DNA of 43,015 bases from Thioalkalivibrio versutus (GTDB lineage Bacteria; Pseudomonadota; Gammaproteobacteria; Ectothiorhodospirales; Ectothiorhodospiraceae). Location: positions 1 through 43,015 of the forward strand of contig NZ_MVAR01000035.1 in NCBI RefSeq assembly GCF_001999325.1. Direction: 5' to 3'. The position numbers and the translations under genes are program-made. How positions within the stretch are numbered: position 1 is the stretch's first letter; each line of letters starts with the position of its first letter. Positions 767 to 7,038 of the stretch are shown piece by piece. The notes under the pieces are model-generated. The model worked only from the letters and a program-made list of their open reading frames with translations, was not told the DNA's origin and did no database searches.

Positions 767-2350
767 TCAGGCCCGGACGCGCACGTTCACCATCATGTCG
801 TTGTCCTCGTGCTCCAGATTATGACAGTGGAACACGTAGAGCTGATCGCCATCGTAGTGATGGGTGAAGTCGATCGCGATGCGCACCGTCTCGCCCGGCC
901 ACAGCAGGACCGTGTCCTTCCAGCCCAGGTCCGTGACGGTCAGGCCTTCATCGTTCACGGCCTGCTGGCGCACAAAGTCCGGACCGCCTGAACGTGACAG
1001 CACCTGGAACGAGAAGCCATGGATATGCATCGGATGCGGCATGCTGCGGTCCGCATTGCGGATCGTCCACACCTCCCGCGTATTGGCATCCACCTCGATC
1101 GGCACCCGGTCAGGAGCGTACGTCTCTCCGTTGATGCGCCACTGCATCGGTGCCATGTCCAGACGGATATCCCGTTCGCCGGCATCCGTCACGTCGATGG
1201 GCTCGATCCGCGACAAACGCTCGGGCACCTCGGCGGTGACCGCCTCGCCCTCGCGGACCACGAACTCGAGCAATGCGAGCGGATCGCCGTCGTGCATGCC
1301 GCCACCCATCATGCGACCCATGCCGCCGCCCATGCCACGCCCCATCATTCCGCCGCCCATGCCGCCACCGGCCATCGGGTCGAATTCCAGGCTGTGCAGC
1401 TCGACCCGGTCGCCTCCGGCAAACGCGGCGAAGTCAACCAGGACCTCCAGGCGTTCTCCCGGCGACAGGAAGGCCTCCCGGGCCTCCCGGGGCGACTCCA
1501 GCAGCCCCGCGTCCGTGCCGATGACCCGGAACGGAATGGCCTGACCCTCGGCGCGCAGGGCCAGCCGGTAGATCCGGGCGGTGGAGCCGTTCAGCAGGCG
1601 CAGGCGATGGATACGCCGCTCCACCTCGTGCGTCGCGGCCGGCGTCATGTTCACCAGCACCTCGTCGCCGAGATAGCCCATCATCCCCTGCATCGGGTTC
1701 GGCCGGTACACCAGATGGCCGAGCCGGTCGAAGCGCTTGTCCTGCAGTACCAGCGGCAGGTCGGTCGTGCCCAGCTCCAGCCCCAGCGCCTCGTTCAGCG
1801 CCTCGTTGTCGTCGTCGCTCACCAGCAGGAAGCTCGCCAGCCCCTGGTGGGCCTGGCGCGCGGTCCGGTGATGGGCATGGGTGTGATACCAGTAGGTACC
1901 GCCACGGTTGGTCACTTTGAAGCGGTATTCGTACTGCTCACCGGGGTCGACCGTATGGATCGGATGGCCGTCCACCCGGCCCGGAACATGCAGGCCATGC
2001 CAGTGGATGATCGTGCCCTCGTCGAGCTGGTTGTCCAGGGTCACGTCCAGTTCATCGCCGGTGCGCAACAAGAGGATCGGATTCTGGTATTCATGGCCGT
2101 TCATCTGCGTCCGGTACCAGAGGAACGGGGTCTCCTCGCGCCCCGGCACCGGCAGCCACCCCTGCTCCGCGACCAGGGTGAACGGCTTGTTGGGTGCGAG
2201 CACCGCAAACGGGCCGTCCGCGCCGGGCAGAAACAGGGCGTTGTCGAAACGGGGGGCGGACACTGCATGGTTGAACAGGCTCCAACCGCCGAATGTGGTG
2301 ATGACGGGAAGCGCCGCGGCCAGCCCCAGAAACTGACGTCGTTTCATCAT
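767..2350 (-). CDS. Multicopper oxidase, CueO/CopA-like, Tat-exported, Met-rich loop
   Basis: Laccase-like periplasmic multicopper oxidase of 527 residues, a usual length for the family. The N-terminus MMKRRQFLG plus a hydrophobic stretch looks like a Tat signal, expected for an enzyme folded with copper before export. Copper-site motifs appear in order: HWHGLH (116-121), YWYHTHAHH (153-161), HPMHIHGF (439-446) and HCHNLEH (508-514), with a Met at 519-520 as likely axial type-1 ligand. Residues 326-352 form a Gly/Met-rich loop with nine Met, comparable to the Met-rich segment of CueO that takes up Cu(I). The likely role is oxidation of Cu(I) in the periplasm. The start overlaps the CopA stop by four bases (ATGA, 2347-2350), so the two are translationally coupled. 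A start one codon later (MKRRQF) is equally possible. Confidence 0.93.
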
Positions 2351-4866
2351 TGCTTTTCTCCAGTACGGGATGCCGGCATGCTCCGGCGCAGCAGAATGGA
2401 ATTGCCGATCACCGAGAGCGAGCTGGCGGTCATCGCGACCACACCGATCATCGGGTGCAGCAGCCCGGCCGCGGCGATCGGGATCGCGGCGCTGTTGTAG
2501 CCCCAGGCCCAGAACAGGTTCTGCACGATCTTGCGGAAGGTCAGCCGCGACAGCTGGACGGCCTCGACGACCTTGGTCAGCTCCCCGCGCACCAGGGTCA
2601 CGTCCGCGGCCTCGATCGCGACGTCGGCGCCGGCCCCGATCGCGATGCCGACATTGGCCTGCTGCAGGGCCGGGGCGTCGTTGATGCCGTCGCCGACCAT
2701 TGCCACGTGCTCGCCGTACTCCTTTTGCAACTCGCGGATGGCCTCGACCTTGCCCTCCGGCAGCACGCCGGCGCGCACCTCGTCGATTCCCACCTGGGCG
2801 GCCACGGCATTCGCGGTGCGCTCGTTGTCGCCGGTGACCATCACGCAGCGGATACCGAGGTCATGCAGTTGTTCGATCGCGGCCTGCGACTCTTCCTTGA
2901 GCGTATCGGCGACCGCGACAACGCCGGCCGCCTGGTCGCCAATGGCCACCAGCATCGCGGTCTTGCCGGCATCCTCCAGTTCCCGCAACGGCCCAAGCAG
3001 GGCCGACGGATCCAGGCCCTGCTCCTCCAGCAGGCGCTGGCTTCCCACCAGCACCCGCTCGCCGTCCAGGTGGGCCTCCACTCCACGTGCGGTATGCGAC
3101 TGGAACTGCTCGACCTCGGCGACCTCCAGCTCCCTGTCGCGCGCCCCTTGCACGATGGCATCGGCCAGCGGGTGTGCGGAACCGGCCTCGACGGCCGCCG
3201 CCGCCCGCAGCACCCGGGACTCGTCAAAGCCTTCGGCCGGGAGGACGTCGGTCAATGCCGGCTTCCCCCGGGTAATGGTGCCGGTCTTGTCGAGCACGAT
3301 CACCGCAATGTCCTTGAGCGTCTGGATCGCGGAGCCCGAGCGGATCAACACGCCGCGCTCGGCCCCCATGCCGGACCCGACCATCAGCGCGGTGGGCGTG
3401 GCCAGCCCCAGCGCACAGGGGCAGGCAATGACCAGCACGGCGATCGCCGCCAGGATCGCCAGCACCAGCGGCGGGCGTTCGGAATCGACCCAGGGCAGGA
3501 AGCCCTCGCCCCAGACCAGGATCGGCTGCAACGCCCCGGAGAACGCCAGCCAGGCCGCGAACGCGGCCAGCGCGATCACCAGCACCGCCGGCACGAAGCG
3601 CGCGGTGATGCGGTCCGCCAGTTCCTGCACCGGCACGCGCGAGCCCTGCGCCTCGTTGACCAGGCGGATTACCTGCGAAAGGAAGGTATCGGCGCCGACG
3701 CGGGTGGCGCGCACCTTCAATCGCCCCTGTTGGTTCAGGGTGGCGCCAAGCACGGTGTCGCCCTCGCCCTTGTCCACCGGGACCGACTCGCCGGTGGCAA
3801 TGGACTCGTCCACGGTGCTTTCGCCGGCCACCACCTCGCCATCGGTCGGCACCTTCTCGCCCGGGCGCACGATCATCACGTCGCCCACCTGGAGCGACTT
3901 GACCGACACCTCGACCTCCTCGCCATCACGCTCGACCCGGGCGGTCTTCGCACCCAGGTCCAGCAACTTGCGGATCGCCGAGGAGGCCTCGCCCTTCGCG
4001 CGATACTCCAGATAGCGCCCGAGCATATGGAAGGCCATGATGGTCGCGGCCATCTCGATGAACGAGGTCATCGGATAGACGAAACCAACCAGCCCGATCA
4101 GGTAGGGCGGCAGCGAGCCCATGGAGATCAGCACGTCCATGTTCAGGTTGCCGCTTTTCAGCGAACGCCAGGCGGACCGATGCGTGGCCGCGCCCCCCGC
4201 CAGGAACACCACCGGGAAGGCCAGCAACGCGATGATCAACAGATAGCCGGGGATCGGCTGCCAGAACATGTGCGGCATCATCAGGACCATGATCGCGATG
4301 GTCGGCACCATCGCGAACCACAGACGGTTCCAGGCCTGCTTCACGTAGGCGGCGTCGATCGCCGCGTCGTCCGCCTCGCTGGCGGCGTCGTCGGTCTCCA
4401 CCGCCGCCACGTCGTAGCCGGCCCCCTCCACAGCCGCGCGCAGGGCCTCGCCATCGGGCCCGTCCGGCGTCACCTCCACCGTCACGCGGTGGTCGGAGAT
4501 GTTGGTGCGCACCGTCTCGATCCCGGCGAGCTTCTCGATCGCCGCGCGCACGATGCCGGCGCAGTGATCCGAACCCATGCCCGGCACCACCAGCCGCACC
4601 GAACCGGAACCCCCGGCCTCGCTCTCGACCTGTGCGACGTCGTAGCCGGCGCCCTCCACCGCGGCGCGCAGCCCCTGCGGGTCGACCTGGTCGGGGTCAT
4701 ACCCCACCGTCACCCGGTGCCGGGCGATATTGGTCCCCACCGAGGTCACCCCCGGGGTCTTTTCCAGCGCCGAGCGCACGATGCCCCCGCAGTGGTCCGA
4801 CCCCATGCCGGGGACGATGACCACCGCCTCGCGGGCGGTCGCCGGCTTCGTTTCTGACGTCGTCAT
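2347..4866 (-). CDS. copA: Cu(I)-translocating P1B-type ATPase with two N-terminal HMA domains
   Basis: Inner-membrane copper-exporting ATPase, 839 residues. Two heavy-metal-associated domains (about residues 14-80 and 89-155) precede the membrane part. Core motifs are intact: TGES in the actuator domain, CPC in the sixth membrane segment ([11 protein letters not shown]), phosphorylated Asp in [16 protein letters not shown] (the HP motif), [10 protein letters not shown], then YNSAA and MTASSLS in the last two membrane segments. That combination fits the Cu(I) subgroup P1B-1. Unusually, both HMA domains read GMGSDHC where GMTCxxC is expected, so the first metal-binding Cys is Ser (residues 23 and 99) while the second Cys is kept (26 and 102). 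The ATG at 4866 follows AGGAGT at good spacing. Upstream and downstream genes on the same strand form one copper operon. No CueR-like gene is visible. Confidence 0.95.
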
Positions 4867-4877
4867 CGCGTGACTCC

Positions 4878-5009
4878 TTACCGACCACCGAACAAATACT
4901 TGATCAACGCGGCGATCGCGAGGATCAGCAGTACCAGGACCAGAAGCCCGATCAGGCCTCCGCCCAGACCCATACCGCCCAGCCAGCCAAAACCTTGTTC
5001 ATTCATCAT
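4878..5009 (-). CDS. 43-residue single-pass membrane protein in copper operon
   Basis: Small gene lying 11 bases upstream of copA. It begins [18 protein letters not shown], continues as one hydrophobic helix of about 20 residues rich in Leu, Val and Ile, and ends KYLFGGR followed by TAA. The upstream GGGAGGACTCC is a good ribosome binding site for the ATG at 5009; the second ATG at 5006 is also possible. There are no Cys or His, and a few Met near the N-terminus. I do not recognise a family. Its size, single helix and position next to the ATPase suggest a small membrane partner or modulator of the copper pump, which is inference only. The reading frame, ribosome binding site and tight operon spacing make it likely to be a real gene. 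Confidence 0.7.
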
Positions 5010-5117
5010 GATGGAGTCCTCCCAAGGACTTAAATTCAACGGCGATACGCGGTTTCGCGTATCGAGGGGGCGATCCGCAATCGCCCGGGGCCGGGCGGAC
5101 GCCCGGCCAGGGAGGAC

Positions 5118-5495
5118 TCAGAGAGGGGGACGCAGATCCGGGCCCGAACGGGCGCCGGGACCCATGGCCACGGCCCCCGGAACGGGGCGGGACAGCGATG
5201 CAGTGACCGGCTTGGTCACGGAGGAAGGCAAGGCGGAGGCCCCGCAGATACCGCAAACCGCGCACGGCATCTCGCAGCCCGAGAAGTCCGCCTGAACCGC
5301 GGGGTCCAAGGGCAGGGGTTCCGAGGGCGAGGTGGCGCCTTGATCCGGACAGTGGCCCGGCGTGGCGATTGCCGCCCCGTGATCCCCATGCATCATGCCC
5401 GCACCGGCGATCGGCGCCAGCAACAGCGCGGCGGCAATCAGCAGAGTCAGCAGATGGGACAGGGCTCGCGACACGGGCAGGCCTCGAAAGAGCAT
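5118..5495 (-). CDS. Small exported Cys/Met/His protein, first gene of copper operon
   Basis: Predicted 125-residue protein. Residues 8-33 form a hydrophobic signal-like segment (SHLLTLLIAAALLLAPIAGAG), so export or membrane anchoring is likely. The mature part begins with MMHGDHG and contains GHCPD and a cluster CEMPCAVCGICG (Cys spacing 3, 2, 2), a plausible soft-metal site. The C-terminal 45 residues look disordered and Pro/Gly-rich. I do not recognise a named family. It is the first gene of the strand-coherent run that continues with the small membrane protein, copA and the multicopper oxidase, so a role in periplasmic copper binding or sensing is a reasonable inference. The ATG at 5495 has only a weak A/G-rich ribosome binding site (AAAAAGA), and no other good start precedes the signal segment. 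Confidence 0.7.
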   Translation of the reverse strand: MLFRGLPVSRALSHLLTLLIAAALLLAPIAGAGMMHGDHGAAIATPGHCPDQGATSPSEPLPLDPAVQADFSGCEMPCAVCGICGASALPSSVTKPVTASLSRPVPGAVAMGPGARSGPDLRPPL

Positions 5496-5532
5496 TCTTT
5501 TTACAAGTCTAGCAGCGTCGCGGACCGGTCAC

Positions 5533-5546
5533 ATGAGATAGATCAA
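5533..5546 (-). promoter_or_regulatory. FNR/Anr-like half-conserved box upstream of copper operon
   Basis: On the minus strand this reads TTGATCTATCTCAT. Against the FNR-type consensus TTGAT-N4-ATCAA the left half is perfect and the right half matches 3 of 5. Its centre is about 44 bases upstream of the ATG at 5495, which would put a -41.5 activator site almost at a leaderless start, so a repressor role or chance is equally possible. No CueR-type operator was recognised here. Confidence 0.25.
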
Positions 5547-5565
5547 GCAGGGAAGCACAACAACA

Positions 5566-7038
5566 TTACAGCACCGGCGCCAGCAGGTAGGCGGCACGCG
5601 CGGCCACGCGGCGCCAGAGCGGGAGATCGTTCACGTCCTGCGGAGTCATCTCGCGGGAACGGGCGAAGTCGGCCTCGAACATGCGCGCCGTCTCGCGCGC
5701 GAAGGCCGGGTCCAGCACCAGTGCCGTGACCTCGAAGTTCAGCCGGAAGGAACGGTTGTCCAGGTTCACCGTACCCACGGCCGCGCCCATGTCGTCCACC
5801 ACGAACGCCTTGCCGTGCAGGAAGCCGTCCTCGTAACGATAGATGCGCACGCCGGCGTCCAGCAGCGGCCCCAGGAAGGCGTAGGCCGCATGCGTGGTCA
5901 GCGGGTTGTCGGTGACCTCGGGAATCAGCACGCGCACGTCGACGCCGCTCAAGGCGGCCAGCTTGAGCATGCCCTGCACGCCCTCGTCGGGCACGAAGTA
6001 CGGGCTGGCGATCCAGATGCGCCGGTCCGCCGCGTGGATCGCCTGCTGCATCATCAGGCTGGCGGTCTCGAATTCATCGGCCGGACCGGAGGGAAGGATC
6101 AGTACCGGGACCCCGTCCTCCGCCATGGTCGCCGGCTTCCATTCCAGCTCCGGGACCGCCTCGGTGGCCCAGTGCCAGTCCTCCAGGAACACCGACTGCA
6201 ACGCGAGGGCGGACGGCCCCGCAATACGCAGGTGGGTGTCGCGCCAGGCACCGATTGCCGGATCGCGGCCCAGGTACTCGTCGCCCACGTTCAGCCCGCC
6301 GACCCAGGCCTGTTCGCCATCGGCGACCACGATCTTGCGATGATTGCGGAAGTTCAGCTGGAAGCGATTGCCGCGTCCGCGGGTGGAGTGAAAGTGCTGC
6401 ACGTGCACACCGGCCTCGCGCAGGGTATCCAGATAGGATCCGGGCAGGCGGTAGCTCCCGATCTCGTCATACAGGAAATAGACCTCGATACCGGCCTCGG
6501 CACGCTCCACCAGCCGGCGCTGGAGTTCGCGCCCGATCGCGTCGTCACGCACGATATAGAACTGCACCAGCAGGTAGCGTTCGGCCTGCTCGATCCCCCG
6601 GAAGATGCTGTCGAAGGTCGCCTCGCCGTCCACCAGCAGCTCGACCTCGTTGCCGTGGAGAAACGGCCAGCGGGCGAGCTGCTGGACGCCGTCCAGGTGC
6701 TTGCTGGGTTCCTCTGCGAGGTACTGGTGCGACCACAGCTCCTCGGTCTTCGGCTGCAGGGCCCGGGCCAGGCTGGAGTCCTCGTCGCGGCGCGCCACGA
6801 CATAGCCGCGAAACTCACTGGCGCCGAACACCCAGTAGGCCGGGACAGCCACATACGGCACGGTGTTGAGTGAAACGATCCAGGCCACCGCGCCCTGCGA
6901 TGTGCGGGTGGACATCAGCGCATCCAGCGAGGACAGGAAGCCCAGCAGGTGGAACGCAATGACCACAGTCAGCAGGACGCGCCAGCGCGGGCGCCGCCGG
7001 CGCGGCTGCGAACGGGCCTCCCCGCTGGAAGCCGACAT
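5566..7038 (-). CDS. cls: Cardiolipin synthase (phospholipase D family)
   Basis: Membrane enzyme that condenses phosphatidyl groups to make cardiolipin, 490 residues, normal for bacterial Cls. Two N-terminal hydrophobic segments (about 21-43 and 48-74) are followed by two PLD domains. Each carries an HxK(x)4D catalytic motif: HRKIVVAD at 233-240 and HGKAFVVD at 408-415. The start at 7038 (MSASSGEARS) was chosen because the frame further upstream overlaps metZ and reads as Arg/Pro-rich shadow. The start lies 7 bases after the metZ stop, so the two are probably co-transcribed although functionally unrelated. Which Cls subtype this is cannot be fixed from motifs alone. Confidence 0.92.
   Translation of the reverse strand: MSASSGEARSQPRRRRPRWRVLLTVVIAFHLLGFLSSLDALMSTRTSQGAVAWIVSLNTVPYVAVPAYWVFGASEFRGYVVARRDEDSSLARALQPKTEELWSHQYLAEEPSKHLDGVQQLARWPFLHGNEVELLVDGEATFDSIFRGIEQAERYLLVQFYIVRDDAIGRELQRRLVERAEAGIEVYFLYDEIGSYRLPGSYLDTLREAGVHVQHFHSTRGRGNRFQLNFRNHRKIVVADGEQAWVGGLNVGDEYLGRDPAIGAWRDTHLRIAGPSALALQSVFLEDWHWATEAVPELEWKPATMAEDGVPVLILPSGPADEFETASLMMQQAIHAADRRIWIASPYFVPDEGVQGMLKLAALSGVDVRVLIPEVTDNPLTTHAAYAFLGPLLDAGVRIYRYEDGFLHGKAFVVDDMGAAVGTVNLDNRSFRLNFEVTALVLDPAFARETARMFEADFARSREMTPQDVNDLPLWRRVAARAAYLLAPVL

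Follow-up and report, generated by a model that had tools for sequence, protein, structure and literature searches.

The 43-residue open reading frame that precedes copA in Thioalkalivibrio versutus is, almost certainly, a real gene, and the peptide that it encodes is very probably a member of a copper module. The reading favoured here, which is on balance probable, is that a nascent-chain copper sensor encoded by the preceding Cys-cluster gene gates the translation of this micropeptide, and probably also of copA, and that the peptide assists in copper export. The separate parts of the proposal carry different weight. By analogy, CutF-like gating of the 43-residue ORF is likely, while a role for the peptide in assisting copper export at the inner membrane is the weakest step and is put forward tentatively. 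All coordinates given below refer to the window, the whole stretch of 43,015 nucleotides that was analyzed.

The gene (4878..5009, minus strand) starts with an ATG at 5009 and ends with a TAA stop at 4880-4878, giving 43 residues. The earlier note had described, from the letters of the sequence, a 43-residue membrane protein with a single helix and a good ribosome binding site, located behind the Cys gene and 11 bases from copA, and each of these statements was borne out. The Shine-Dalgarno (SD) sequence, GGGAGGAC, was found at 5016..5023 (minus strand) and its GGGAGG was invariant in all 11 aligned sequences of the genus, while the gap between the stop codon and the copA ATG at 4866 is indeed 11 bases. 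A TTG further upstream, which would extend the protein to 53 residues, was also considered as the start but was disfavored; the ATG at 5009 was preferred because the SD sequence and the Met-Met pair are conserved. At two T. halophilus loci (L039 and L063), the start region was duplicated (MMNDQYTMMHDQG), resulting in a longer N-terminus.

A single-sequence AlphaFold model of the peptide, with a mean pLDDT of 81, placed the main helix at residues 17-40 (pLDDT of about 93 from residue 21 to residue 40) and a short helical turn at residues 7-11. The Kyte-Doolittle hydropathy averaged over 19 residues reached a peak of 3.2, and Lys37 and Arg43 stand behind the hydrophobic stretch. According to the positive-inside rule, basic residues mark the cytoplasmic side of a membrane protein, so the location of the Lys and Arg behind the helix suggested an N-out, C-in orientation. 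The model and the distribution of charge suggest that the peptide is a single-pass protein of the inner membrane with a cytoplasmic C-terminus. The ORF reading, the homologue searches, the substitution analysis and the AlphaFold model together identified it as a short-form member of a small-protein family of the TM/SHOCT type.

Matches to the peptide were found in 25 of 58 genomes, its own included, at E<=1, and 12 of these besides that of the window were strong (E<=1.8e-6). With a profile, the 43-residue ORF was located in 15 genomes among the 47 of the order, again counting its own, made up of 11 of 30 in the window's genus and four of five in a second genus; the genome from which the window was taken has a single copy. 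The ATGATG start was retained in all 15 copies and the frame was free of internal stop codons in 14 of 14 sequences. The mean dN/dS was 0.198 for the 10 genus sequences (45 pairs) and 0.235 for the 14 sequences, where 86 of 91 pairs yielded a value, the set having been assembled without L065, the one sequence with a 4-residue insertion. Controls in shifted frames gave values of 0.84 (32 codons) and 2.59 (40 codons). The earlier note had proposed that the gene be given up if the frame lacked conservation and synonymous bias in relatives, but when this was examined the gene held, with a dN/dS of approximately 0.2 compared to 0.84 and 2.59 for the controls. It could be argued that the ORF is spurious and open merely through the GC-rich sequence, as one antisense frame was likewise open throughout in 14 of 14 sequences. 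However, the length, start, SD sequence and residues are all conserved, the dN/dS is 0.2 and there are profile matches in other families, many preceded by SD-like sequences of their own, so that this explanation is scarcely tenable.

Searches of Pfam and NCBIfam returned no family above the cut-off for the peptide. A match to the holin family PF07332 was rejected (E=1, 9.9 bits versus a curated cut-off of 28.4). Plasmid searches with three peptides of the family gave no matches, possibly through low-complexity filtering.

The copA gene, which codes for a copper P1B-type ATPase and was identified by profile matches and an orthologue search, occupies 2347..4866 (minus strand). A CueO-like multicopper oxidase is encoded at 767..2350 (minus strand) and adjoins copA in nine of the 11 genus loci that have the 43-residue ORF. 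In all 11 of these loci, the window included, the gene order was the same, a phospholipase-D-like gene, the Cys gene, the 43-residue gene and copA, with the 43-residue gene directly upstream of copA. All four loci of the T. denitrificans group carried a gene for a beta-propeller between the 43-residue gene and copA. The propeller protein was considered as a partner of the peptide and rejected, since a propeller match at E<=1e-20 occurred in none of the 30 genus genomes, yet 11 of them keep the peptide.

A close copA (at least 69% identical) was present in 20 of the 47 genomes of the order. Fifteen of the 20 also had the Cys gene together with the 43-residue gene, and the remaining five had neither, a co-inheritance with a Fisher p of 6e-5 when shared ancestry is ignored. 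In three of the five genomes lacking both small genes, the copA was 90-92% identical to that of the window. In L050 the phospholipase-D-like gene adjoins copA and both small genes are absent, while in L051 and L052 the phospholipase gene is also absent beside copA, as are both small genes. The five CopA orthologues without the peptide indicate that CopA can do without it. Among the 20 genomes, the strictest partner of the 43-residue gene is the Cys gene, not copA. Outside these pairs, Cys-like genes occur without a 43-residue gene in G031, and in G034 a second such gene precedes a gene for a cytochrome-like lipoprotein.

Several other features of these loci were recorded. Both N-terminal HMA domains of the CopA encoded in the window (2347-4866) read GMGSDHC, at residues 20-26 and 96-102, where the usual copper motif of an HMA domain is GMxCxxC; the first 200 residues contain no CxxC, and the membrane CPC at residues 482-484 is intact. 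Upstream of the Cys gene (5530-5547, minus strand), the sequence CTTGATCTATCTCATGTG, whose TTGATCT part is common to nine of the 11 aligned genus loci, resembles an FNR/CRP-type site, so that the copper operon may respond to oxygen as well. Two genomes of the T. denitrificans group encode a second CutF-like leader (L057, 4916-5257; L055, 4640-4299) with the cluster CDHCGSCGHC and the ending PPGSLRPPDIA, located about 80 nt ahead of a gene for a lipoprotein-like cytochrome.

The Cys gene (5118..5495, minus strand) was described by ORF reading and motif comparison as a CutF/DUF2946-like leader with an apparent signal peptide, and its 125-residue product is a candidate nascent-chain copper sensor. 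As published, the rules for CutF-like leaders are a length under 150 residues, a signal peptide, a Pro-Pro pair among the 15 C-terminal residues and no more than 1,000 nt to the downstream gene (PMC9973294). The protein of the window, at 125 residues, is within the limit of length, and its N-terminus, an Arg-containing start followed by the core LLTLLIAAALLLAPIAGA, was judged by eye to resemble a signal peptide. In 15 of 15 loci there is a Pro-Pro inside the last 15 residues, and the distance to the downstream gene is 106-163 nt, compared to the limit of 1,000 nt.

The Cys protein has a CxxxC motif (CEMPC, residues 74-78; 5262..5276, minus strand) and a C-terminal PDLRPPL (5118..5141 with the stop codon, minus strand), a possible stalling motif that was invariant in 11 of 11 genus loci despite synonymous codon changes. 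The distance from CxxxC to the last Pro-Pro was 44 residues in all 11 genus loci and 43 in the four T. denitrificans-group loci, whereas the spacing between the signal core and CxxxC ranged from 55 to 66. A fixed distance between the metal motif and Pro-Pro has been described for the DUF2946 family (PMC9426467). One of the six Cys proteins tested, a T. denitrificans orthologue, matched DUF2946 (PF11162) nearly end to end, although with E=6.7e-4 and 20.8 bits the match was below the curated cut-off of 23.7. The other five had no match to DUF2946, and the protein of the window matched no Pfam or NCBIfam family. Arrest peptides of the RAPP type have an RxPP motif (PMC12992588). This motif, with Arg two residues before Pro-Pro, was absent from the Cys proteins of the genus, all 11 of which have LRPP; the corresponding residues in the four T. 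denitrificans-group leaders are QRPP, HRPP (two loci) and GHPP.

The gap between the Cys gene and the 43-residue ORF is 108 nt in the window and opens with the anti-SD GTCCTCCC (5110..5117, minus strand), which is located directly behind the stop codon of the Cys gene and is the exact complement of the SD sequence. The predicted structure is an 8-bp stem that closes the SD sequence around three hairpins on the minus strand: one at 5089..5108, placed by the fold and the alignment, one at 5068..5086, with four pairs changed on both sides, and one at 5043..5064, with two such pairs. The predicted minimum free energy for the window was -61.2 kcal/mol (z=-5.94), and none of 200 shuffled sequences was as stable; the z values for four other genus sequences were -3.3 to -5.5. 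In the 11 genus sequences, 92% of the pair cells were kept, compared to only 42-49% pairing when the partner strand was slid. There were six pairs with changes on both sides across the 11 sequences, a number equalled by two of 500 shuffles, while a further measure of covariation, based on pair types, was equalled by 95 of 500. The double changes were confined to the inner hairpins, and the anti-SD stem, which is nearly invariant, is without covariation because it is too conserved.

The probability that the SD core is unpaired was 0.00-0.01 in 10 of the 11 genus loci and 0.34 in the eleventh. When the first 6 nt behind the leader stop codon were masked, this probability rose to 0.22-0.60 in all 11. 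The SD sequence of the 43-residue ORF is thus predicted to be hidden by the anti-SD structure in the 11 genus loci. For the T. denitrificans group, none of the four loci gave the SD-hiding fold when the ORF start was included, though both genes are kept. An anti-SD stem at the T. denitrificans locus L058 was seen in a short fold (z -1.9) and was discarded, as it disappeared once the ORF start was included; for L059, one fold used a sequence cut before the SD and a later fold used the full stretch. The SD sequence of copA was mostly open in seven of the 11 loci (unpaired probability 0.72-0.90) and mostly closed in four (0.01-0.38). The idea that it is locked within the 43-residue ORF was dropped as inconsistent among the loci, and its open state in the seven implies that copA may be translated without the micropeptide. 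No T-run was seen by eye behind the hairpins. A search of Rfam with window positions 4860-5600 gave SorX alone, below threshold (E=0.77), and this was rejected.

The relatives of the peptide extend beyond the order. A first peptide profile matched sequences in 34 of the 369 genomes sampled from the class (E<=0.01) and a second matched sequences in 19 of 398 genomes of the phylum (E<=0.001), both counts including the genome of the window. Many members stand alone as ORFs of about 40 residues and have an SD-like sequence, and in some relatives a helix of this kind is followed by a SHOCT domain. The window peptide did not match SHOCT (PF09851), and four of 20 aligned sequences did, which is the number of long forms put into the alignment. 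The possibility that truncation of a SHOCT protein at this locus gave rise to the peptide was considered and rejected; of the SHOCT matches in the genome, one above the cut-off and three under it, none is on the contig of the window.

A copper marker, defined as a homologue of CopA, multicopper oxidase, propeller or CusA, was found within 5 kb of 25 of 38 relatives, compared to one of 20 control stretches that were placed by hand at round coordinates, not at random, in 19 of the 30 genomes concerned (Fisher p 5e-6, the 38 stretches not all being independent). The 38 contexts comprised 18 of the 40 non-window matches in the class, mostly the better-scoring ones, with the lower-scoring and most of the SHOCT-bearing matches left out, and 20 of the 26 matches from the phylum profile; they include the near-identical pairs L152/L154, L157/L163 and L159/L160, the SHOCT-bearing L116 and L155 and several stretches at contig ends. 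An oxidase was found near 16 of the relatives, CopA near 13, a propeller near 10 and CusA near two, and there was no marker near 13. In three genomes of another family, a CopA homologue is followed immediately by the relative, and in two of these a MerR-type regulator gene is located upstream. The propeller genes near the relatives (L101, L102, L104, L106-L111 and L116) are of the YVTN type and are often the next gene downstream.

The N-terminal tails of the family are rich in Met, His and Cys. In 20 members chosen by similarity, Met, His and Cys accounted for 88 of 300 positions (29%) in residues 2-16, compared to six of 512 (1%) in the rest of the sequence; 20 of the 88 are the Met at residue 2, and 68 of 280 remain without it. 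The enrichment is not independent because the members were picked by similarity. The window peptide lacks the His residues of its relatives (H3 and H17), and its tail has only M1, M2 and M13, which weakens a copper-binding role in this lineage. Small membrane proteins of this family recur in the copper-efflux clusters of Pseudomonadota, and the 43-residue peptide represents their short form, which has no SHOCT domain.

The preferred mechanism, which for the gating step is based on the anatomy of the locus, the predicted folds and the CutF precedent, can be outlined as follows. Copper would bind to the emerging leader and the ribosome would slow at the C-terminal Pro-Pro. A ribosome stalled at the last Pro codons would cover approximately the first nucleotides behind the leader stop codon, that is, the anti-SD. 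With the anti-SD covered, the SD sequence would open and the micropeptide would be translated, so that by analogy it is probably made when copper rises. The copA gene, only 11 nt downstream and with an SD sequence abutting the micropeptide stop codon, would be co-translated, and translational coupling between the two is plausible. The peptide would then work beside CopA, possibly by means of its Gly/Met/His-rich periplasmic N-terminal tail.

KdpF and MgtS are tiny single-helix proteins that are encoded beside P-type ATPases and bind pumps. The 43-residue peptide is likewise tiny, with a single predicted helix, and is encoded beside a P-type ATPase, and the earlier note had suggested a CopA-associated micropeptide. 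Part of that suggestion was upheld, as the gene is genuine and conserved, belongs to a copper operon and immediately precedes copA wherever it occurs in the genus (11 of 11 loci), but specificity for CopA did not hold, since five of the 20 close CopA orthologues lack the ORF and the Cys gene is the stricter partner. A dedicated subunit or regulator that binds to the membrane domain of CopA, as KdpF or MgtS do with other P-type ATPases, is rather improbable. The position of the gene, the occurrence, in three genomes of another family, of a relative right behind a CopA homologue and the retention of the peptide where no oxidase was found (L069, within the 9 kb examined; L070, within roughly 1 kb after copA) are all points in its favor. 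Nevertheless, the peptide is missing beside the five orthologues, no CopA homologue was found within 5 kb of 25 of the 38 relatives, many of which neighbor an oxidase or propeller instead, a propeller gene separates the peptide gene from copA in four of four T. denitrificans-group loci, and the partner genes vary among the relatives, which sets the peptide apart from KdpF and MgtS.

The ORF could also serve chiefly to carry ribosomes from the leader-gated SD sequence into copA, with the peptide itself of little use. The gated SD sequence does belong to the 43-residue ORF, and in the window copA starts 11 nt behind the ORF stop codon, which its own SD sequence touches. However, purifying selection acts at the level of the amino acids, distant relatives keep the peptide in unrelated arrangements and the copA SD sequence is mostly open in seven of 11 loci, so this explanation is quite improbable. 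A copper-envelope accessory that serves no single pump, its Met/His/Gly-rich periplasmic tail binding or passing Cu(I) near exporters and oxidases, is unlikely but deserves consideration. It would agree with the concentration of Met, His and Cys in residues 2-16 of the 20 members (88 of 300 versus six of 512) and with the varied copper partners of the relatives, although the tail of the window peptide has only M1, M2 and M13, the ligand positions are not conserved and the enrichment is not independent of the choice of members. The favored reading remains a leader-gated micropeptide that assists copper export.

Genome annotations often omit small membrane proteins, and a family of roughly 40 residues that turns up repeatedly in copper clusters is a candidate for a common role. 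The locus is a compact, testable case of translational copper sensing in which a micropeptide is the first output ahead of a P-type ATPase. The gating principle itself is already known from CutF. A literature search, conducted mostly outside subscription journals and supplementary neighbor tables, found no micropeptide as the first output ahead of a P-type ATPase and no copper-linked short-form family, nor was a small subunit of a bacterial copper pump found. A wider proposal, which is speculative and at present improbable, is that the micropeptide gated by a copper-sensing nascent chain is a general inner-membrane component of bacterial copper export, belonging to a family that travels with CopA, multicopper oxidases, the periplasmic beta-propeller and at times CusA across the Pseudomonadota and that, in Thioalkalivibrio, became the first output of a CutF-type switch in which the anti-SD immediately follows the stop codon of the sensor gene.

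The peptide resembles the SHOCT small membrane proteins (PF09851; PMC3581485) in its Gly/Trp-rich N-terminal tail and in a helix with a basic-aromatic end, and differs from them in having no SHOCT domain. The Cys protein is similar to CruR of Bordetella pertussis, a DUF2946-type leader in which the distance between the metal motif and Pro-Pro is also fixed (PMC9426467); 45 residues intervene between CXXC and RAPP in CruR, while 43-44 separate CxxxC from Pro-Pro here. The CruR system differs in that copper lowers a TonB-dependent transporter via Rho termination and a RAPP arrest motif (PMC9426467). The closest parallel is cutF-cutO-cutG of Rhodobacter capsulatus, where copper control has been demonstrated for CutF (PMC9973294, PMC8456105). 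Both loci begin with a small leader that has CxxxC and a C-terminal Pro-Pro and is the first gene of a copper operon, and in both an mRNA structure is predicted to hide the SD sequence of the next gene (PMC9973294). The leader described here ends in DLRPPL, in contrast to EGPPPRL in CutF, and here the anti-SD starts directly behind the leader stop codon, with a stem that encloses three hairpins. Moreover, the hidden SD sequence is that of an oxidase in the CutF system (PMC9973294), while in Thioalkalivibrio it is that of a 43-residue membrane protein ahead of a P-type ATPase.
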